Shown: positions 1,656 through 29,238 of the stretch, one piece after another | How positions within the stretch are numbered: the first letter of the stretch is position 1 | Layout of the letters: each line of letters opens with the position of its first letter | Origin: a virus | Direction: 5' to 3' (one strand) | DNA: 29,266 nucleotides | Virus record (IMG/VR): IMGVR_UViG_3300009548_000024 | Coordinates: 1 to 29,266 of that record | Position numbers and translations under genes: made by a program | Notes under the pieces: generated by a model | Told to the model about the DNA's origin: nothing | The model's input: only the letters and a program-made list of their open reading frames with translations | Database searches by the model: none

Positions 1656-1796
1656 GTGTCTCCTAAAAATACCAAGGTAGATAAAATTTATCAGGCAATC
1701 AAAAAGAAATCCGGTGATAAGGGCATGGCGGCTGCGACTGCTCAAAATATAACTGGTAAATCGCTGGCAACCGGCAAAAAGCCAAAAGGTAAATAA
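1656..1796 (+). CDS. Small basic pre-portal protein (46 aa)
   Basis: A GTG start at 1656 opens a 46-residue frame whose TAA stop overlaps the portal ATG (TAATG). A G-run (GGGGG, 1645-1649) serves as a modest ribosome site. The product has KVDKIYQAIKKK, then GMAAATAQNITGKSLATGK and a Lys/Gly-rich end. This resembles a recurring class of very small phage proteins with a helix, an AA-x-Ala-Gln/Asn-x-TGKSL motif and a basic tail that often sit beside terminase or portal genes; their function is not established. The coupled overlap with the portal supports a real gene. A true start elsewhere is unlikely because no other suitable codon lies upstream in frame. Confidence 0.7.
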   Translation: MSPKNTKVDKIYQAIKKKSGDKGMAAATAQNITGKSLATGKKPKGK

Positions 1797-3820
1797 TGGC
1801 TGAACAAGCCCTACAAAAATCAGGCATGGTTGATTTGGAAGATATTTTCCCTGGCATTGACCCGGACATGATGGATATTCCTGAACCTCATGACCAGCTT
1901 GCCGTTCATGTTCGTTCTGTTTGGCAAACGAATTGGCAAGCCAAACAGGTTATTGAGCAAGAAGATTTAGCCAATGAGCGCCGGGTTAAAGGTGAATATG
2001 ACCCTACACACCTTGCCGCGATAAAAGACGCTGGCCTTCCTGAAGACACAATACGCATGACCTACCACAAGTGCCGTGACTGCTGTTCATGGGTGCTTGA
2101 TACCATTGATCCTCTCGGTGATCGTACATGGGACGTTGAGCCGGATGGTGTTGTTGAAATCCCTCCTGAGCTTCACGATCAACTCATTCAGCAAAAACAA
2201 GCAGAGATGCTGCAAGCGATTATGCAACAAGCTCAAGCATCCGGTCAACAACTCGACGAAAATCAAGTTCTACGAATGATTGAATCTTCTGAGCCTGAAC
2301 TTATCGGCCTTATTCTTGAGGAAGCGAAAGCCGTTGCTGAAGAACGCTGCACCAATATGGAACGGCTGATTATGTCTCAACTTCATGAAGGTGGGTGGGA
2401 TGATGCATACAAGGCTTGCGTTGATGATTTCTCAAAGCGTAAAGCTGCGGTAATGAAAGGCCCACTCCCTAATAAAATCAGAGTGCTGAAAAATGATGAA
2501 AAGACGGGAAGATATAAAGCAGTAGATAAAGTTGTACCCGGCTTCTGGCGGGTAAATCCTTTTGATGCTTATCCTGCGCCAAATTCTCTGAATCCGAATG
2601 ACGGCGATTTCATAGAGATTGAACATTATGATCCGCTCGACCTTTCCCGGCTGATTGGTCAACCCGGATATGATAGTGACGCCCTCCGTAAAATTCTTGC
2701 CCTATACCCGAAAGGGCATCATGAAACAACAGTAATTGATGATGAGCGTAAATGGCTTGAGAATGAAGATGTAAGCGGTGCTCAACTCGATGCTTACGGC
2801 GGGAAAATAGACTGTATCAACTTTTGGGGTAATGTCCAGGGCAAGATTCTCCGTGATTGGGGAATGAGCGAAAAGAAAGTTCCTGATGGAGATTCGTATT
2901 ATCCCGTCAATGTGAAGATGGTTAACAACATCATTTTCCAGGCCCGTATTAATCCTGACCCTCTTGAACGCAATCCTTACGATTCCGCTTCATTCGTTAA
3001 AAATAACGATAGTGTGTGGGGTGAATCTCCTGCTGACTTGATGAAGGGTCTTGAAAATATGGCCCGTGCTACGATCAGAAACATGATGTATAACGTGGCG
3101 ACTTCTTCAGGTGCAGTATGGGAAATTGATGAAACTCGGCTGGCTCCTGGGGATGATGGCGATATTTATCCCGGCAAAAAGTTGATGACTACCAACAAGA
3201 GGATGCAGGAAGGTCCGGCACTTCGGATGTATCAGGCCAAACTGAACGCTCAAGAGTTACTTTCTGTTTTCGATAAATTTACCAAACAGGCTGATGACAC
3301 AGTTGTTCCGGCCTTTGCCAATACTGCTGCTGGTGGGGAAAGAACGACCTCGGCTCTTTCAATGAGAATGTCTGCTGCTGGCCGGAATATCAAGATGGCT
3401 GTTGATAATATCGACAGTGGCATAATCCACAACAAGATTGACAAGTTATTTACATGGAACATGCTGAATGTCGATGATCCTTCCATCAAGGGAACGACAA
3501 GGGTAGTGGCTCGGTCTACCAAGTCTCAAGCTGCGCGTGAACAAATGGCGACACGGCACTCTGAATTTGTTGACAGGATTGCGCGTAATCCCATTCTCAC
3601 AAGGATCGTCGGTGATAAGGGGCTTGCTTATGCCTTGGGCGAAAATGCAAAGTCACTTCAAATGAATGTGAAGATGTTGATTCCGAACCTAGAAATGATA
3701 GAGAAATCTCCAAATCAACCGCTTAACCCGGCTCAAGGTGGAGAACAGCCCCCTGCGGCAAATGGGGAGACTCTTGACCATGCCGGTAATCCTGCTGGTG
3801 GGCCACAAGGAGCCGCTTAA
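1796..3820 (+). CDS. Portal protein
   Basis: This 674-residue protein has the size and layout of podovirus-type portals, which form the dodecameric ring at the unique capsid vertex through which DNA is packaged and ejected. A helical N-terminus (residues 35-100) leads into a Gln-rich insert (about 126-157). The central part (220-300) contains the segments GPLPNKIRV, FWRVNPFDAYPAPNS and DFIEIEHYDPLDLSRL. The later part has SVWGESPADLMKGLENM and SALSMRMSAAGRNIK, resembling the portal stem and crown helices. The C-terminal 30 residues are Pro/Gly/Asn-rich and probably disordered. Upstream terminase context and the downstream scaffold and capsid genes agree. Start and stop overlap the neighbours by one base each, indicating coupled translation. 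Confidence 0.88.
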   Translation: MAEQALQKSGMVDLEDIFPGIDPDMMDIPEPHDQLAVHVRSVWQTNWQAKQVIEQEDLANERRVKGEYDPTHLAAIKDAGLPEDTIRMTYHKCRDCCSWVLDTIDPLGDRTWDVEPDGVVEIPPELHDQLIQQKQAEMLQAIMQQAQASGQQLDENQVLRMIESSEPELIGLILEEAKAVAEERCTNMERLIMSQLHEGGWDDAYKACVDDFSKRKAAVMKGPLPNKIRVLKNDEKTGRYKAVDKVVPGFWRVNPFDAYPAPNSLNPNDGDFIEIEHYDPLDLSRLIGQPGYDSDALRKILALYPKGHHETTVIDDERKWLENEDVSGAQLDAYGGKIDCINFWGNVQGKILRDWGMSEKKVPDGDSYYPVNVKMVNNIIFQARINPDPLERNPYDSASFVKNNDSVWGESPADLMKGLENMARATIRNMMYNVATSSGAVWEIDETRLAPGDDGDIYPGKKLMTTNKRMQEGPALRMYQAKLNAQELLSVFDKFTKQADDTVVPAFANTAAGGERTTSALSMRMSAAGRNIKMAVDNIDSGIIHNKIDKLFTWNMLNVDDPSIKGTTRVVARSTKSQAAREQMATRHSEFVDRIARNPILTRIVGDKGLAYALGENAKSLQMNVKMLIPNLEMIEKSPNQPLNPAQGGEQPPAANGETLDHAGNPAGGPQGAA

Positions 3821-5222: not shown

Positions 5223-6302
5223 ATGAAGAATTTCAACAGATTCATGCAGTCAAAATGGGGGATATTCGCCCTCGTTATCCTGTGCGCTGCAATCGCACAC
5301 CTTCAGGGACATAGTGCTTTTGCATTTATGGCCGCTGGCCTTATTGCTGGTGTCCCTGGTGAAGTGGATTATACAAACCAGACAGGTGACGCCCGTATCC
5401 CGGCCCTTTTCTCTCGGATTTACCGGGATAAGTTTTATGATGCAGTCTGCGCGGCCAACATTACCAACACGAAATATACCGGTGAGTTGAAAGGACTCGG
5501 CAACCAAGTAACTATCAATACCATTCCTACCGTCAAGATTTACCCCCTGGTGCGCGGTCAGAAGCGCCAATGGCAAGAGCTTACTTCTGCGCCGGTTATC
5601 ATGACCGTCAACCGTGGGACCGTCTTTGACTGTCTTATCCTCGACGCCGATAAATCCCAAATGTGGGATAAGGATTTCCTTGGGACTCTTTCCAAGGATG
5701 CTCGTCAACAGAACGCGATTTACGTTGATGGTCTTTTCCTGTCCACCAACTATCCCTATGCCGCTGCCGCTAATACTGGTACTGCTGCCGGTAAGAAATC
5801 TGGTACTACTGCAACCGTCGCCGGTCCCGGCTACAACATGGGCGTAAGCGGTACGCCTCGCGGCGTCAACAAGGTCAACGTGGTTGACGCAATCCGCGAT
5901 TGCCAGTCTGTCGGTGACGAACAATCCTGGCCTACGGATGATCGGTGGATGGTCATTCCTACCTGGATGGAAAATATCATGGATATGTCGGATTACAAGG
6001 ATGAATCCATGACCGGCATGAAATCTACCTGGGCTGGCGGACGGATCGGCACTTGCGCCAAATTCAAGCTCTATTCCACAAACCTCTACACGCCGATTGC
6101 TGACGGCTCCGGCCACACGGCATATCCGGTGATCTTCGGCCACATTTCGGCAATCAGCTTCGTGCAGCAACTCGCCAATGTCAAATATTTCCCGGAACTT
6201 CAGGAAGTCAACGGCGCTGGTCTGTGCGGAGAAAACATCTTCGATTGGTCCGTGACTTATCCTGACGCTCTCGGCGTTCTGTACTGCTACCAGAACCGGT
6301 AA
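5223..6302 (+). CDS. Major capsid protein with a signal-like N-terminal leader
   Basis: A 359-residue protein follows the scaffold with a strong AAAAGGAG site seven bases before ATG 5223. From about residue 45 it reads as an HK97-type capsid subunit: DARIPALFSRIYRDKFYDAV (N-arm), GNQVTINTIPTVKIYPL (extended loop), VFDCLILDADKSQMWDKDFL and QQNAIYVDGLFLS (spine helix region), and a P-domain-like C-terminal half with DDRWMVIPTWMENIM. The first 36 residues are odd: two Lys and an Arg, then WGIFALVILCAAIAHL and an AFA motif, like a Sec signal peptide. ATG 5328 would remove this leader, but no ribosome site precedes it. A cleaved propeptide or assembly leader is possible. Confidence 0.82.
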   Translation: MKNFNRFMQSKWGIFALVILCAAIAHLQGHSAFAFMAAGLIAGVPGEVDYTNQTGDARIPALFSRIYRDKFYDAVCAANITNTKYTGELKGLGNQVTINTIPTVKIYPLVRGQKRQWQELTSAPVIMTVNRGTVFDCLILDADKSQMWDKDFLGTLSKDARQQNAIYVDGLFLSTNYPYAAAANTGTAAGKKSGTTATVAGPGYNMGVSGTPRGVNKVNVVDAIRDCQSVGDEQSWPTDDRWMVIPTWMENIMDMSDYKDESMTGMKSTWAGGRIGTCAKFKLYSTNLYTPIADGSGHTAYPVIFGHISAISFVQQLANVKYFPELQEVNGAGLCGENIFDWSVTYPDALGVLYCYQNR

Positions 6303-6325
6303 TAATCGGCTCAATCAATCATAAT

Positions 6326-6906: not shown

Positions 6907-7620
6907 ATGGGAAGAAACATCCAAACATTTGGTGAGGTAGTCCTGGAAGGCGCGATAAACCAGGATGGGGTTTATGTCATGCTTCGTGACTTAAATCTGA
7001 ATGCCTTTTATTGCGCTGGCGCAAGCACGGCCCCTTCGGGCAAGGCGCATTATGCGGTAGGTTGCACTTACGTCAACATGACAACCGGCGCAAAATACAT
7101 CAACACTGGTTCTATAACCTCTTGCACATTCGTTCTTCAGTCTGCGACACCAAGTAATACAATAACTACCGCAATGCTGATGGCGAATGTAGTCACCAGT
7201 GGCAAGATCGACACGGGCGTTATCCAGGTGGACAAGGTTTCCATCTCAGCGGCCAACATCATATCAGGCACTACGATGAAGCAGCTTGTGGCTGCTCCTG
7301 CTGCTGGCAGTTATCTGGAACTGCTTTCTTGCACACTGGCAATAACCTTCGGGACGGCTGCGTACACTGGTGGCGGCAACGTGTCAATAGCGTTGGGTAC
7401 GACTCCTATTACCGGTATCATATCCAATGCCAACAGTTTCGGTAAAGGCTCAAATGCAGTCATTCAGTTTAATCCGCTGGCTGCGGCGGCAACCGATATT
7501 TCAGCGTTGACTGCAACGGCGCTGAACATCAACGTGGCTTCAGGGGCGTTTACTAATCCTGGAACCGCTGCGGGAACGGCGGTTGCTTACGTCGCTTACC
7601 GCATTCTCACAACCACATAA
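6907..7620 (+). CDS. Probable head decoration or fibre-like structural protein (237 aa)
   Basis: ATG 6907 follows AAGGAG. The protein is beta-rich and Ala/Thr/Gly-rich throughout. Residues 45-75 include KAHYAVGCTYVNMTTGAKYINTG and a segment ending CTFVLQS. This resembles the 'ApGC-x-li-D-x-x-x-g-k-x-YvNtG' pattern found in capsid decoration and head-fibre proteins that sit beside major capsid genes. The rest has long runs of alternating small residues without lysine clusters, typical of trimeric beta structures. It is flanked by other small structural genes. The decoration role is inferred from the motif and position. Confidence 0.7.
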   Translation: MGRNIQTFGEVVLEGAINQDGVYVMLRDLNLNAFYCAGASTAPSGKAHYAVGCTYVNMTTGAKYINTGSITSCTFVLQSATPSNTITTAMLMANVVTSGKIDTGVIQVDKVSISAANIISGTTMKQLVAAPAAGSYLELLSCTLAITFGTAAYTGGGNVSIALGTTPITGIISNANSFGKGSNAVIQFNPLAAAATDISALTATALNINVASGAFTNPGTAAGTAVAYVAYRILTTT

Positions 7621-7640
7621 GTTTGATCTGTTGAAGGATG

Positions 7641-7663
7641 GGCCGGAACTGTTTATTCCGGCC
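7641..7663 (+). other. Perfect 8-bp hairpin in the 83-base gap
   Basis: GGCCGGAA (7641-7648) pairs with TTCCGGCC (7656-7663) around a seven-base loop. The following bases (TTGACTT) are not a T-run. It may be a weak transcription brake or an mRNA-stabilising element. It is the second gene-separating hairpin in the capsid region. Confidence 0.6.
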
Positions 7664-7703
7664 TTGACTTGAACGGCCAAGCCAATTAAGGAGGATTTAC
7701 GAT

Positions 7704-8054
7704 ATGCGAATAAAAATGAGTAACATGGTATCAGTCTTTGAATTCGGTGCAACGGGAACGACTGTCAAAGTCCCTTCTGATGTTAACGGCTGGCTTAAAC
7801 AGATGATTGTTGATGTAACTGGCATTACGACTCAAAGAGCAATTATAACTATTGTTGACCCTATGGGATACATAGTTTTTACTTCTGCTTCATGCCCTGC
7901 CAGCACAATAACCCGGATTGGTGACACGATAACTGCGGCTGAACTCGGTCAAATCCCTCTCGGTGAATGGCCCTGGTATCTTCAGTGTACTCTTTCCGGC
8001 AATGCGGGTGGTATAGGTGGCAATGTCACGGTAGTTTCATATTTCAGTTTATAA
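7704..8054 (+). CDS. Small beta-rich structural protein (116 aa)
   Basis: An AAGGAGG site at 7688-7694 precedes ATG 7704; another in-frame ATG lies four codons later. The product alternates strands and turns (VSVFEFGATGTTVKVPSDV, ITTQRAIITIVDPMGYIVF) and ends in GGNVTVVSYFSL. It has no membrane segment, cysteine cluster or charge-rich region. It is flanked by capsid-associated genes, so it is probably a minor head or neck protein. Not assignable to a family. Confidence 0.7.
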   Translation: MRIKMSNMVSVFEFGATGTTVKVPSDVNGWLKQMIVDVTGITTQRAIITIVDPMGYIVFTSASCPASTITRIGDTITAAELGQIPLGEWPWYLQCTLSGNAGGIGGNVTVVSYFSL

Positions 8055-19786: not shown

Positions 19787-20827
19787 ATGGCAGCAACTAT
19801 TGATCCCCAAACAATCCTCACTGAATCTGAAAATCTTGTTAATGATTTTTTAAGTAGAATTGACGACTCAATAAGCAACTTACAGAACTTTGTTGACGGT
19901 CGCACTACTTATGTAACTTACAATCCTCCTACTGCGTTTGCTCCTTCGGCTCCTGCGCCGATTCCTTTAGATCAGTTACCGGTTTTAACCCCTGCAATTC
20001 TTGATGCTGACTTTGGAAATCCTCTGTCTGAAATGGACGCCTATAAAGGGCATGTTTATATCGCTCCTATTCTCGATCAAATGGAAGCGACTTTAACCGG
20101 GTGGATCAACTCTAAGACTCTGGCCGGGGTGGATGCGGCTGGAAATCTGCTGACTTCTGGTGGGGTTGGGATTGATTCGACTACCCAAAACGCCATATAC
20201 CAGAATGGACGGCAGAGAGATTTACTTGCTCTCTCTGATGCGCTCGATGCCATAGCTTCAAGAGATGCGAAGAGAGGTTTTGCTTATCCGACTTCACGGA
20301 GAGCTTCTGATGCGGCTATTGTCGAGTTCCAACAGAATTACGAGAATCGAAGCTGGCAGATCACGGCTCTCATGTCCGACTTGGCTCAAAAGAATATCCA
20401 ACTGGCAATACAAAGCAATATGAGTATAGAAGGGTTACATGCCTCTTTTGCTCAAGGCTTCGGTAGTCTCTTCCTGAACTTGAAAAAGTTGATTGTGGAT
20501 ACTTTTAAGGTGGAGGTCGATGAAAGAGTAGAAGTATTTAAAGCTCAACTCTCGGCAGTCATAGCCGGTTATCAACTCTCTGAAATCAATGGTAAACTGT
20601 CTATTTCTTTCCAGGAATTGCTTTTGAAACAATGGGAAATCCTGACTGAAACATCTACTGACAGAGTGAAGAGCCTTATTGCACAAGCTGAAGAGGGGAA
20701 TAGGATACAGCTTGAGGCTGCTAAAGCTCTTGTTTCCTCTTTGGAGAGCATAATTCAGGCGGCATTATTCCAGACAAACGGAGTAGTGGCGCAGATAGAT
20801 AGTCAGACTTCAGGAAGTAGTGCATAA
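19787..20827 (+). CDS. Coiled-coil virion protein (346 aa)
   Basis: ATG 19787 lies one base after the previous stop, with AGAGAGG just upstream. The N-terminal 90 residues have a helix (ENLVNDFLSRIDDSISNLQNF) and a Pro/Ala linker (PPTAFAPSAPAPIPLDQLP). From about residue 100 the protein is largely helical with long amphipathic stretches, including RGFAYPTSRRASDAAIVEF and LEAAKALVSSLESIIQAAL. It lacks the size and repeats of a tape-measure protein. Phage genomes often carry helical proteins of this style before internal-protein genes, so a tail-tube, needle or ejection-linked role is possible. Not assigned further. Confidence 0.68.
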   Translation: MAATIDPQTILTESENLVNDFLSRIDDSISNLQNFVDGRTTYVTYNPPTAFAPSAPAPIPLDQLPVLTPAILDADFGNPLSEMDAYKGHVYIAPILDQMEATLTGWINSKTLAGVDAAGNLLTSGGVGIDSTTQNAIYQNGRQRDLLALSDALDAIASRDAKRGFAYPTSRRASDAAIVEFQQNYENRSWQITALMSDLAQKNIQLAIQSNMSIEGLHASFAQGFGSLFLNLKKLIVDTFKVEVDERVEVFKAQLSAVIAGYQLSEINGKLSISFQELLLKQWEILTETSTDRVKSLIAQAEEGNRIQLEAAKALVSSLESIIQAALFQTNGVVAQIDSQTSGSSA

Positions 20828-20837
20828 GGAGTTAATC

Positions 20838-23024
20838 ATGATCTCTCCGCAAATTGAAAACCTTGTCAGAATGAAAGTTCAGCAATCCAATGTGATGTTG
20901 GCCTCTCAACCGCAACCGGGTCAAGTGCCTGGAAGGGCTGAAGGTGGCTCGGCTCCTGGCATTATTCCTGGTCCTGTTTCTATGATGGGTGGAGATAATA
21001 CAATGACTCCTACCAAATCAGGTGAATATATCCTGCCGGTTGAGGCTGTCATGGGCCTTGGAGTGCGGATGGGTGCCACTACTCATGGTGACGCTCTGGC
21101 AATTGGAAAGCATATCCTTGATAAAGAGGTTATGGGGCTGAAAAAGGAAATGGGGAATAACACTCCTCCCCGCAATTCAGGTATTTCGACTGGCGCGGAT
21201 CAGGCTTCTCCTACTCCCGGTCAAGGGGTTGGCTTTGCTGAAGGTGGCATAATTTCGGATGCAACACAATGGTTGGGAAGTCATGTTGTTGACCCTTTAA
21301 AAAATATGATGACTCCAAAACCGGGTATTCCTGTTGGCTCTACTCCTCCTTTGCAACCTCAACAGGTGGGGAGTGGTTATCTTAACCGTACAGGAACGGG
21401 GTTACAAAGTCATAATTCAGCGGTTGAACAGGTGGCAAGAGATACCGGTTATGCTGAAGGTGGCGGAGTAGGGAATTGGTTAAGTGAGCATGTTGTTCAA
21501 CCGGTTAAATCTGCTCTTACTCCTAAACCTGGGATACCGGCTTCTCCTTCTTCGACTGCTCTTGGTACTGGATATGCCCGTAATACGGCAGATACAGTAA
21601 AGACACACAACCAGGCTGTGACGGATGCGGCCAAAGGTTATGCTGAAAGGGGTATGCCGGATAATCAGTTTATACCAGTAGAGAAACAGCCTATAGTAGC
21701 TCCTCATAGTGCAGAAGGCTCTTTTGAATTACCTCCTCCGAAACCCGGTATCCCTGCTCCGGCTGCTACAACTCCTCCCGGCCCTGCCTCTCCTCCCCCT
21801 GCACCTTCTGGAATGGGTATCGCTCCTGACCCTCACGGCTCCGCACAAATCGGTAAACAGAAAGTCAATTATGGTGACATTGGCGTAATGGGTAAAGACC
21901 CGCTGGCCGGGAAAAGTACGGGTAGTGTCAATACAATGACTGGTGAAGAGTTCCAGAGATCAGGATTGGCTGCGGACCCGAATTTCGGTAAGACGGGCAT
22001 GGAATACAACACGGCAACAAAAACCTGGGGTAAACCGGACCCTGAAATAATGGTTGGCAATCCGAATGGTATCATGTCAACGATGAAGGAATCTGAAGCC
22101 TACAATAAGGGACTAATGAATCCTCAACAACGGCAGAGTTATGAAGCTCGGCAAATGCAGGAAAAGGAACTTCAGGCCAAAACAGATATTGCAAAAGGAA
22201 CGATGGGTATCAAACAGGAAGAAGTTGATACAAAGAAAACTGCGGCTGAATCGTTGGCTGCATACCATAAGCAACTCGGTGACGCAAAAACTAACTTTGG
22301 TAAAGGGGTTATGAGTAGTTTAAGCCCTGAAGCCGTACATGATCTTGCTTCACAATTTGCCAAAACAGGCCAAATGCCAGCAATGGGAATGGGTGGCATG
22401 GCGGATAGAGAGGCTATCTTTAACGAATGGTCGAAAATGATGCACACTCAAGGCGGGACTCTTAATGACCAACTTGAACAACGTGCTGCTCTCAAGGCAA
22501 GTCAAGGGGCGCTTAACAATGATGTTAAACAGTATGACCTGATGGAGAAATCCGAGAAACAGGCTGCGGGTGCTGCAAAGTTACTTCGTGAATCGTCAAA
22601 GAACTATGGGCGAACCGGTGTCAGATTCGTCAATTCTATGGAAGCTCTGACAAGGAATGCGGTCAATGACCCGAAACTTGCTGACCTCCAAATGAAATTA
22701 CTTGCATTCACACGTGAATATTACAAAATTACGACAAATGCCTATGCAAGCGTAGGGGAACTGTCAAGAGGGGCGCAAGAACAGGCCGACAAGCTCCTTA
22801 ACGCTTCAGACAGTTATGAATCCCTTGATGCGAAGATAAGGGCTGCTGAACAGGAAATAGCAAACACCAAGGGTACTTTTAAAGAGACTATTGACGCTCG
22901 GAAGAAGGATATTTCCAGTGTTGGTAAAGAACTTACTCCTGACATTGCGGCTCAATACAAAGCCAAATATGGAGATAGGGCAAAAGCGGAAGCGGCGGCA
23001 AAAGCGGACGGTTACACCTTCTAG
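20838..23024 (+). CDS. Large internal/ejection-type virion protein with AEGG repeats (728 aa)
   Basis: ATG 20838 has AAGGAG six bases upstream; a GTG at 20820 overlaps the previous gene and lacks a site. Residues 32-110 include RAEGGSAPGIIPG, then GEYILPVEAVMGLG. Two tandem repeats follow: FAEGGIISDATQWLGSHVV with MTPKPGIPV, and YAEGGGVGNWLSEHVVQPV with TPKPGIPA. Pro/Gly-rich linkers occupy 285-345. The C-terminal 350 residues are helical with acidic/basic coiled-coil sequence. Long, repeat-bearing and charged, it matches the style of phage proteins ejected with the genome. That function is inferred from style and position. Confidence 0.68.
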   Translation: MISPQIENLVRMKVQQSNVMLASQPQPGQVPGRAEGGSAPGIIPGPVSMMGGDNTMTPTKSGEYILPVEAVMGLGVRMGATTHGDALAIGKHILDKEVMGLKKEMGNNTPPRNSGISTGADQASPTPGQGVGFAEGGIISDATQWLGSHVVDPLKNMMTPKPGIPVGSTPPLQPQQVGSGYLNRTGTGLQSHNSAVEQVARDTGYAEGGGVGNWLSEHVVQPVKSALTPKPGIPASPSSTALGTGYARNTADTVKTHNQAVTDAAKGYAERGMPDNQFIPVEKQPIVAPHSAEGSFELPPPKPGIPAPAATTPPGPASPPPAPSGMGIAPDPHGSAQIGKQKVNYGDIGVMGKDPLAGKSTGSVNTMTGEEFQRSGLAADPNFGKTGMEYNTATKTWGKPDPEIMVGNPNGIMSTMKESEAYNKGLMNPQQRQSYEARQMQEKELQAKTDIAKGTMGIKQEEVDTKKTAAESLAAYHKQLGDAKTNFGKGVMSSLSPEAVHDLASQFAKTGQMPAMGMGGMADREAIFNEWSKMMHTQGGTLNDQLEQRAALKASQGALNNDVKQYDLMEKSEKQAAGAAKLLRESSKNYGRTGVRFVNSMEALTRNAVNDPKLADLQMKLLAFTREYYKITTNAYASVGELSRGAQEQADKLLNASDSYESLDAKIRAAEQEIANTKGTFKETIDARKKDISSVGKELTPDIAAQYKAKYGDRAKAEAAAKADGYTF
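21234..21638 (+). repeat. Two tandem protein repeats (about 63-72 aa)
   Basis: Residues 133-204 and 205-267 of the protein starting at 20838 share the order AEGG, W-L-x-x-H-VV-x-P-x-K, TPKPGIP, GYxRNT/GxG, and HNxAVxxxA. The second copy is shorter in the linker. A truncated AERG follows at residue 269. DNA similarity is modest. Confidence 0.8.
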
Positions 23025-25216: not shown

Positions 25217-26785
25217 ATGATTCTCCCTGCAATAAAATTTAAAGATCAAATTCATAAAGGGTCATTTGAAGATCATCATTCTGATATTCTGGCGGCAAAC
25301 AAGATCGGCAAAAAGCAGCCCCATAAAGAGGGATTCGTTATTGGTGGCCGGTTTTATAGCCGCAAGTATGCCAGTGATTACATGAAATCGAAAGGCTATA
25401 ATGTCCCGGATGAACTTCATTCTGAAGATATGAGAAAGGCGATAAATGATCCACAACAGGGAAAAACCGAGAAAGAAACCAAAGTGAAGTTGAAGGATGT
25501 GAAAGATGTTGTTGCTTGTGTGATTGATTATGGCACTTTCATTTGTGTAGCAGATACCCTTAGCAAAACAATGAAAAAGGTCTATTGCTATAACTTCACT
25601 GCTGAAGAATTTTATTCCATAGCAGATTTATGCAAGGCAACAGGTCTGAAAAATGTAGTAAGAACAAACGATATTTTTAGCCCTGAGATACTGGATACCA
25701 TTGATCTTTTTATCTTCCCGGATATTGGTTATGAAGGTTTGCAAAAACATTTTAAAACACTCGGCAAGGCAGTATGGGGAAGCATGGGAGTTGATGCAAT
25801 AGAAATTCTGCGGGATGAATTTCTGGAATTAATAAAAAAACTTGGGTTGCCAGTAATTAACTCTGTGCCAATAAAGGGTGTTTTAAACCTTCGTGAACAT
25901 CTTTCCAAAGTCAAAAATAAGCATGTTAAAGTTAATATATATCGTAAAAATATGGAGACATGGCATCACATTGATATAGAACATAGTCAGTCAGAACTTA
26001 ACAGGATGGAAACCGAATTCGGCGGTTTAGAGGATATTGTTGAATTTATCGTACAGGATCATATAGATACCGATGTTGAAACTGGATATGATGGGTGGAG
26101 TATTGACGGTATCTTTCCGGTATTTTGTTCTCAAGGCTATGAAAAGAAAAACGAGTTATATCTTGCTGCCTTAGTGGAATACAAAAATGTTCCCGACGAA
26201 ATTAAGGAGATTAATGATGCGATAGCTCCGTTGTTGAAAAAATATGGCTACCGGAATTTTTGGGCTACAGAAATTCGCGTGAAAGGTAATAAAAACCATT
26301 TCATTGATCCTACTCCTCGTATGCCTGGGATGAGTGGTGAACAGTTTATGATGACATGCGAGAATATTGCAGAAGTCATTTGGAAGGGCGCGAATGGGAT
26401 TATGGTGGAACCGAAATTTAATGCTAAAGTTGTTGCGGCGGCAACTATTTATTACACTGATTATATAGACGATAAGCATTGGATGGTATTGGACATACCT
26501 GAGAAAGTTAGGCCATATTTCAAAGGCTGGCATTATTGTTTTCATAACGGTAAATTCCATTGGCCTCCTAAAGACAATTGTGAGCTTGGTCTTATCTTAG
26601 GGGCTGGTGATAACATAAGAGAAGCAATTGAACATCTTAAAAAGAACATTGAACTATTGAAGGATGAACCTGTCAAATTCAAACTGCATGGTTTCAAGGA
26701 AATCTTGAAGGATATTGTTGAGGCCGAAAAACACGGAATTTATTTTAACGATCAGAAAATACCTGATATAAGTGATATTATTTAA
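25217..26785 (+). CDS. Probable ATP-grasp ligase fused to a phage N-terminal module (522 aa)
   Basis: ATG 25217 follows GAAGG. Residues 5-75 form a module seen at the N-terminus of other phage proteins: HSDILAAN, then GFVIGGRFYSRKYASDYM and LHSEDMRKA. Residues 185-400 have the order of an ATP-grasp enzyme: VWGSMGVDAIEILRDEF (186-202), VKVNIYR with a candidate ATP-binding Lys238, EFIVQ hinge (276-280), GYDGWSIDG (290-298), TEIRV (351-355) and FIDPTPRMPG (362-371), the last matching the metal-binding 'lEvNpR' segment with Thr in place of Asn. ATP-grasp enzymes join a carboxylate to an amine or similar via an acyl-phosphate. The substrate is unknown. Identification is by motif, so a diverged or inactive member remains possible. 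Confidence 0.62.
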   Translation: MILPAIKFKDQIHKGSFEDHHSDILAANKIGKKQPHKEGFVIGGRFYSRKYASDYMKSKGYNVPDELHSEDMRKAINDPQQGKTEKETKVKLKDVKDVVACVIDYGTFICVADTLSKTMKKVYCYNFTAEEFYSIADLCKATGLKNVVRTNDIFSPEILDTIDLFIFPDIGYEGLQKHFKTLGKAVWGSMGVDAIEILRDEFLELIKKLGLPVINSVPIKGVLNLREHLSKVKNKHVKVNIYRKNMETWHHIDIEHSQSELNRMETEFGGLEDIVEFIVQDHIDTDVETGYDGWSIDGIFPVFCSQGYEKKNELYLAALVEYKNVPDEIKEINDAIAPLLKKYGYRNFWATEIRVKGNKNHFIDPTPRMPGMSGEQFMMTCENIAEVIWKGANGIMVEPKFNAKVVAAATIYYTDYIDDKHWMVLDIPEKVRPYFKGWHYCFHNGKFHWPPKDNCELGLILGAGDNIREAIEHLKKNIELLKDEPVKFKLHGFKEILKDIVEAEKHGIYFNDQKIPDISDII

Positions 26786-27425: not shown

Positions 27426-27641
27426 ATGCAACACATATCTGTCGATTCCAGTAATATTGCTTCGGTTGGTCATGAAGGCGACACTATGCAAGTTACTTTT
27501 AAACATGGTGGGACGTATCAATACAGCGGAGTGGACAAGGATACATTCAACGGCCTTTTGTCGGCTCCGTCCATTGGCAAGGCTCTTAACCAGTCAGGGT
27601 TGGTAGGTGTAAAACTTAATCCTGAAAAGAAGGAGAAATGA
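27426..27641 (+). CDS. KTSC-domain protein (71 aa)
   Basis: AAGGGAGG precedes ATG 27426. The whole protein matches the small KTSC domain: SSNIASVGHEGDTMQVTF (V-x-SS-x-I-x-x-i-G-x-x), then GGTYQYSGVDKDTFNGLL and SIGKALNQSGLVGVKL. KTSC domains occur alone or beside lysyl-tRNA synthetase and in many phages; their biochemical role is not well established. It begins a series of small genes before the lysis genes, just after the terminator at 27381-27404. The domain match is by eye but clear. Confidence 0.8.
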   Translation: MQHISVDSSNIASVGHEGDTMQVTFKHGGTYQYSGVDKDTFNGLLSAPSIGKALNQSGLVGVKLNPEKKEK

Positions 27642-28696: not shown

Positions 28697-28775
28697 TCAT
28701 TGCGGATTTAAATATTGCAAACATCCTGATAAGCCAAAGGAGATAGCTTATGAAGGCAAGCCGAAAGTGCCTTGA
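28626..28775 (+). CDS. 49-aa cysteine/histidine mini-protein
   Basis: GGAGG at 28614-28618 lies seven bases before ATG 28626, a strong site. The product has THWCETQSRERISHCGFKYC then KHPDKPKE, with Cys15, Cys26, Cys31 and nearby histidines, a possible small zinc site. It overlaps both the TTG-started upstream gene and the first 26 bases of the endolysin. Function unknown; placement suggests a lysis-cluster or regulatory peptide. Confidence 0.6.
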   Translation: MAKILPQKNLKTHWCETQSRERISHCGFKYCKHPDKPKEIAYEGKPKVP

Positions 28776-29238
28776 ACTTATCGAGAGCGAAGAGGGCAAA
28801 GTCAATCATTTTTATCACGATCAGGCTGGCTACCCTTCAATCGGTATCGGTCATAAACTGACACCTTTACAAGTTGCTTCTGGCAAACTGGTTATAAACG
28901 GTGAGTCAGTCATATATGCCAATGGCCTGACGGATCAGCAATGTTACGACCTCCTGGCTCAAGATATTATCCCGGCTGAAAATGAAGTGAATCAGGCTGT
29001 TCAAATAACTTTGAATCAGAATCAGTTTGACGCATGTGTTGATCTGGCTTTTAACATTGGTTCGGGTGGGTTTAACGGGAGTTCTGTACTCATGTATATT
29101 AACGCAGGGCATTTTGATGATGCTGCTAAATCATTTGCCTTATGGAATAAAATCACAAAGGATGGTGTTCATGTAGTTTGTGACGATTTAACAAAACGGA
29201 GAGCCAATGAAGCGGCACTATTCATGGAGGATGTATGA
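28750..29238 (+). CDS. Endolysin, GH24 phage lysozyme
   Basis: AAAGGAG is seven bases before ATG 28750. The 162-residue protein matches T4/P22-type lysozymes, which cut the glycan MurNAc-GlcNAc bond of peptidoglycan. The active-site region is ESEEGKVNHFYHDQAGYPSI: Glu15 (general acid), Asp24 eight residues later, and Ser30 where T4 lysozyme has Thr26, followed by GIGH. The middle has LNQNQFDACVDLAFNIGSG, the conserved substrate-cleft helix (Phe-Asp-Ala...Asn-x-G), and the end has LWNKITKDGVHV and KRRANEAALF. Length fits. It has no signal peptide, so release would depend on a holin. It overlaps the next gene by ATGA. Confidence 0.93.
   Translation: MKASRKCLELIESEEGKVNHFYHDQAGYPSIGIGHKLTPLQVASGKLVINGESVIYANGLTDQQCYDLLAQDIIPAENEVNQAVQITLNQNQFDACVDLAFNIGSGGFNGSSVLMYINAGHFDDAAKSFALWNKITKDGVHVVCDDLTKRRANEAALFMEDV

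Follow-up and report, generated by a model that had tools for sequence, protein, structure and literature searches.

A predicted PurD-like ATP-grasp ligase encoded beside virion genes of uncultivated phages

An ORF between the virion genes and the lysis block of an uncultivated virus encodes a protein whose core, as modelled, is a complete ATP-grasp protein with PurD (GAR synthetase) as its closest counterpart. The window analysed is the whole of a 29,266 base stretch, the IMG/VR record IMGVR_UViG_3300009548_000024. We give an even chance to the reading that the product is a late virion-linked or late-effector carboxylate–amine ligase of PurD architecture, catalytically competent, virus-specific and other than a GAR synthetase, which would modify a host or virion component. 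The features of the window are as follows.

1796-3820: portal-type gene, near the window start
5223-6302: major head protein gene, near the window start
20820..23024, + strand: 734-aa ORF, internal/ejection-type; 36% identity over 200 aa to its equivalent in the related locus L063
23034..25202, + strand: 722-aa ORF upstream of the ligase, likely ejection protein; weak PF16928 match and similarity to L063
25206..25212, + strand: Shine-Dalgarno-like GAAGGTG ahead of the ligase ATG, read directly from the sequence
25217..26785, + strand: PurD-fold ATP-grasp ligase ORF, ATG start, 522 aa, from its relatives and the family alignment
25217..25486, + strand: N-terminal extension, aa 1-90, mostly of low pLDDT and lacking in most family members
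25487..26719, + strand: PurD-like core, aa ~91-501, from the AlphaFold model against the PDB and the PurD profile alignment; by model and PDB comparison its domains are, in order, N-terminal Rossmann-like, ATP-grasp and C-terminal
25928..25930, + strand: codon of Lys238 (HVKVN), predicted ATP-binding lysine, present in 25/25 members and aligned with PurD VIKADG
26117..26164, + strand: signature loop around SQGYEKKNELYLAA, aa ~301-316, with G307, E309, K311 and Y315 invariant in 25/25 members
26270..26320, + strand: E352 ... D364-P-T366-P-R368, predicted metal-binding and catalytic segment, from the family alignment and AccC/PurT spacing
28750..29238, + strand: phage lysozyme (endolysin) of the lysis block, last gene of the window (Pfam PF00959, E 4.7e-31)

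The first-pass annotation had placed the ORF in a virion-to-lysis region, and this placement holds, with two large virion/ejection-type ORFs before it and the lysozyme gene after. The ligase starts 14 nt downstream of the end of the 722-aa ORF. The product of that ORF matches PF16928 (P22 injectosome translocase) weakly (E 0.27) and shares 50% identity across 384 aa with a segment of a 1489-aa protein from L063, where the next protein upstream is the counterpart of the 734-aa product. Neither ORF has a firm family assignment; given their position and the weak PF16928 match, both products are most simply taken to be ejection (internal virion) proteins. Recent foreign acquisition of the ligase gene was considered and rejected on composition, as its GC content is low (0.37, z -1.8) but its GC3 is ordinary (z -0.7). 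Between the ligase and lysis genes lies a gene for a KTSC-domain protein (27426-27641; Pfam E 3.9e-15). Opposite the major head protein gene, an antisense open frame of 354 codons (5250-6314, - strand) is probably a coding-strand artefact.

An AlphaFold model of the window protein, built on a 15-row alignment, has a pLDDT of 78.7 overall, with core blocks mostly at 80-95 and the N-terminal 90 residues poorly modelled. Foldseek returned 453 PDB matches at E <= 0.001, the best being the PurD entry 3lp8 (E 4.3e-18). All PDB matches listed (the best 50 per search, Foldseek and VIA) are ATP-grasp proteins or larger enzymes containing one, the latter being carboxylases and carbamoyl phosphate synthetase. 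Among the VIA matches listed, the top 13 are all PurD/GAR synthetases (Z 27.7-23.9), including 2xcl (Z 27.7; 383 residues aligned at 3.8 A and 12% identity, model residues 98-501 on chain residues 1-421). These are followed by PurK, PurT, PylC and biotin carboxylases at Z of about 23-20 (22.8-20.9 for PurK, PurT and PylC). The predicted model, compared with the PDB, therefore has the ATP-grasp fold with its two alpha+beta subdomains. The first-pass proposal of an ATP-grasp enzyme with a complete run of motifs is upheld by this structure prediction, and chance does not explain the motifs, whose key residues are the same in all 25 divergent members.

A profile of the 25-row family aligns end to end with a profile of 22 bacterial PurD proteins and E. 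coli PurD (23 in total), over 392 columns with a global E of 4.5e-9, and locally with an E of 2.4e-4 and a probability of 43.7%; these E-values apply to a single comparison, PurD being the sole multi-sequence profile tried. At the level of sequence profiles the alignment shows relatedness to PurD, and by itself it ranks PurD above neither PurK nor PurT. Like the structural alignment, it spans the full-length PurD architecture. With single-sequence templates hhalign gave no signal. The profile search proposed in the first-pass annotation yielded a relationship to PurD and no family name: the window protein is assigned to none of the families in Pfam, PHROGs, NCBIfam or PADLOC. NCBIfam purD (TIGR00877) was the only hit of two relatives, below threshold (10.9-11.7 bits against a cut-off of 288), and the window protein did not hit this model.

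PurD as both the closest fold and the only NCBIfam near-hit would suit an auxiliary purine gene, that is, a PurD encoded by the phage to produce glycinamide ribonucleotide and raise the nucleotide supply. However, the PurD substrate motifs GNGGREHAL, SQDHKR and GPNTGGMGAYSP (reference, E. coli PurD) are absent from 25/25 members, so the protein is probably no GAR synthetase. Pfam GARS_A likewise has no match, against 14/14 control genomes positive, the gene sits in virion blocks, and no further purine gene was found in the two relatives read through. A purine role is most unlikely; the ligase appears PurD-like in build, yet on its sequence it should not be filed as PurD.

The predicted ATP-binding Lys and acidic metal ligands are conserved throughout, K238, E352, D364 and R368 being invariant in 25/25 members. 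Such invariance makes catalytic activity probable. The stretch ATEIRV..FIDPTPRMPG has its counterparts in segments of E. coli AccC, PurT and PurK AMECFVTPQGLLINELAPRVH, and the E352-D364 spacing equals that of E. coli AccC (TFEF...FIEMNTR) and PurT (GVEL...SEVSPR) and matches PurK too. The Thr that replaces Asn in DPTPR had been noted at first pass as a feature that might mean altered chemistry. This reading does not survive comparison, nor is the Thr an oddity of this protein. D-P-T-P-R is common in the close family, most members have Thr at this position and the distant L022, L023, L025 and L076 have Cys or Ala; because E. coli PurT has Ser here (EVSPR) and PurK Ala (ELAPR), both without Asn, the Thr gives no reason to expect a different chemistry. 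The same substitutions (Asn to Thr, Cys or Ala), together with a PurD-like AAGKGV glycine loop that is unrecognisable in the phage family, could be taken to indicate a catalytically dead ATP-grasp fold retained as a structural virion protein. Set against the invariant Lys, Glu, Asp and Arg, and against PurT and PurK, which likewise do without the Asn, a dead fold is very improbable.

The alignment comprises 25 divergent members, down to 27-30% identity, from uncultivated viruses and two short MAG-binned contigs. It contains 32 invariant positions, among them D104, K238, R243, E247, E288, G290, D292, G307, E309, K311, E352, R354, D364 and R368. In two close pairs dN/dS is 0.036 (L002/L013) and about 0.10 (L022/L023), which indicates strong purifying selection on the family. 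This conservation of the active site makes the function directly testable with a single recombinant protein.

Searches of IMG/VR gave 24 family loci from two scans, to which a portal search added L068, L073 and L076. A tblastn search with three divergent members found nothing in 50,697 phage records. One scan of genome contigs, which searched bacterial genomes by peptide patterns and was not exhaustive, gave two matches only, both on contigs of <5 kb that are binned in MAGs and carry viral-type neighbours, and so no cellular relative. As far as searched, the family appears to be virus-only. A role as an anti-defence gene was rejected, PADLOC giving just a chance-level match to Cmr6.

The N-terminal extension, in which GFVIGGRFYSRKYA forms residues 39-52, had been described at first pass as a phage-type module. 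As far as searched it is no general module, and it has one clear match only: residues 4-41 resemble the C-terminal tail of the 1489-aa ejection protein of L063 at 34% identity (score 66 against 35.2 +/- 4.9 in 2000 shuffles, 0 as high). This protein is the counterpart of the gene directly upstream of the ligase in the window, and the ligase was not found in the stretch of L063 read. Most relatives begin at the ATP-grasp core, and the ejection-tail fusion is peculiar to the window phage. To judge from this match, an ejection-protein tail seems to have been placed onto the ligase. A widespread module was rejected: neither isolate phages nor viral contigs gave a match, and PHROGs matched only at E 0.08; a two-sequence profile of the segment found nothing further in the fetched loci, and no wider spread came to light. 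The likeness to an ejection tail supports a virion link, short of proof. The earlier idea of a virion-carried enzyme gains from this and from the adjacency to virion genes across the family, while packaging itself is a reasonable guess.

Two other N-terminal and C-terminal additions were seen. In L002 (5656-6045) and L013 (5605-6000) the ATP-grasp protein has a different N-terminal stretch, with HAD-like motifs (DFDGVIT, TGRP, FIDD) and no convincing Pfam match. The 1489-aa ejection-type protein of L063 (5401-9870) is lengthened at its C-terminus by a long stretch containing an HEVFH motif and a SCGACYVDAKRM segment. This stretch has the appearance of an effector region that was added on; no Pfam family matches.

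Three placements of the gene recur, all on the virion-gene strand, and virion genes adjoin it wherever neighbours can be named. The first is a portal-scaffold slot (e.g. L003, L006, L008, L009, L010 and L073), the second follows ejection-type proteins ahead of lysis or portal genes (the window, L001, L002, L004, L012-L014 and L026), and the third lies within a siphovirus tail block (L022, L023 and L025). Mapped on a maximum-likelihood tree, the slot labels require five changes or more, three to four of them forced by well supported branches; none of 200 shuffles had placements as clustered as these. At a minimum, about four moves of the ligase gene from slot to slot are implied, each ending beside virion genes. 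The conserved position could reflect a need for late expression alone. Among loci related by portal, 11/15 have the ligase, a fraction biased upward by a portal query taken from ligase-bearing phages; it is absent from L069 and L077, and L070 and L071, not individually examined, give the same match as L069. Because it is lacking in related phages that share the structural genes (L063, and, judged by portal, L069 and L077), the ligase is not essential to the virion type.

Overlaps of 4 nt join the ligase to the portal gene (L006, L073) or to a gene termed c6 (L005, L009, L010, L027) and suggest translational coupling. The c6 products (L008:2177-2608, L009:5525-6007, L073:9412-9813 and others) form an unnamed HExxE family of 125-170 aa with invariant H65-E66-x2-E69, H123 and E130 (L009 numbering). 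In about ten loci their gene is a neighbour of the ligase gene, on one side or the other, and two more ligase-bearing records have it elsewhere; it was not found in the window or in several other ligase-bearing records. The c6 model (pLDDT 88) has weak structural matches, mainly to zincin metallopeptidases (best Z 4.4), and a zincin-like assignment is not firm. Two portal ORFs (L005:2230-5403 and L068:3-2093) look intein-interrupted, with Hint-like segments; the L005 product has 1057 aa, whereas portals of relatives have about 700-750.

The portal-scaffold slot is where a head protease is encoded in many phages. Occupation of this slot by the ligase, its overlap with the portal gene and the frequent adjacency of c6, with its weak zincin matches, would fit a virion-maturation enzyme whose target, cross-linked or given a covalent modification at assembly, is a protein of the head, the portal or the ejection apparatus, with c6 sometimes taking part. 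We consider this unlikely, as the targets of PurD-type enzymes are small molecules, c6 is absent from the window and the ligase is dispensable in related phages.

Other neighbours are sporadic. In L004 the ATP-grasp gene shares its last 4 nt with a GNAT acetyltransferase gene (7359-7829), and a weakly CDP-glycerol-glycerophosphotransferase-like gene lies near the ligase in L010 (9838-10932) and L017 (4169-5194). A late change to a cell-wall or surface-polymer precursor, serving superinfection exclusion or lysis timing, could be read from these genes (the transferase-like one also being near in L015) and from the lysis genes that adjoin in the window, L001, L002 and L013. Such an envelope role is doubtful, given that these neighbours are not constant and that the portal-slot members are distant from lysis genes.

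In the preferred reading, a late virion-linked or late-effector ligase, the enzyme would be made from the late virion/lysis block. The predicted reaction uses ATP and Mg2+: an acyl-phosphate would be formed from a small carboxylate, for which an amino acid is the likeliest candidate, and the activated group would then be passed to an amine, the acceptor probably being other than phosphoribosylamine. The enzyme would most likely modify a host or virion component in this way, and would not serve as an auxiliary purine gene. A bolder version, which we put forward as a tentative possibility of low probability, is that PurD-fold ligases form a virion-linked enzyme class of a new kind. Such enzymes would either attach covalent modifications to virion proteins in maturation or be injected to modify a host target, and in many phages the portal-scaffold slot would hold them together with a zincin-like partner.

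Central metabolism and natural products both contain peptide-like bonds made by ATP-grasp ligases. A branch confined to viruses, conserved beside portal and ejection genes, missed by the family libraries searched and lacking in isolate phages, would point to uncultivated phages having a modification step driven by ATP. Full-text literature searches, with most subscription journals outside their coverage, turned up no account of a PurD-type ATP-grasp protein in virion blocks. The phage ligase has in common with PurD the three-domain architecture over the whole chain, the order of motifs and the predicted Lys/acid/Arg set. It differs in its low identity (about 12%), in lacking the three substrate motifs, in having D-x-T-x-R where PurD has E-x-N-x-R and in being, as far as searched, virus-only and located in virion gene blocks. 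PurK, PurT, PylC and biotin carboxylase have the same fold with lower structural scores (Z 20-23); PurT and PurK resemble the phage family in a metal motif without Asn, and AccC shares its E-x11-[DE]-x-[NT]-x-R spacing.

Other phage-encoded ATP-grasp proteins are known. LUZ24-like phages have an amidoligase-GATase-ATP-grasp cassette with GATase_6 and Amidoligase_2 (PMC3890496), which resembles the present case in being a phage-encoded ATP-grasp ligase of unassigned product, but lies in the early region, unlike the phage ligase in its virion blocks. GATase_6 was found in 0/18 relatives' records, some of which may be incomplete, against 14/14 positive controls; Amidoligase_2 was found in 0/18, with the control genomes also all without a match. 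The R2K and CDC123 ATP-grasp peptide ligases occur in phages and are thought to modify host proteins (PMC4431377, PMC7824862); for the phage ligase the best folds are PurD-type, and the fold ranking favours PurD. For polyvalent, injected phage effectors, ATP-grasp is mentioned only for RNA ligases (PMC5512222). The phage ligase, a candidate for injection, resembles those effectors in being encoded inside a virion block, on the same strand as the virion genes, and in having an N-terminus like the tail of an ejection protein.
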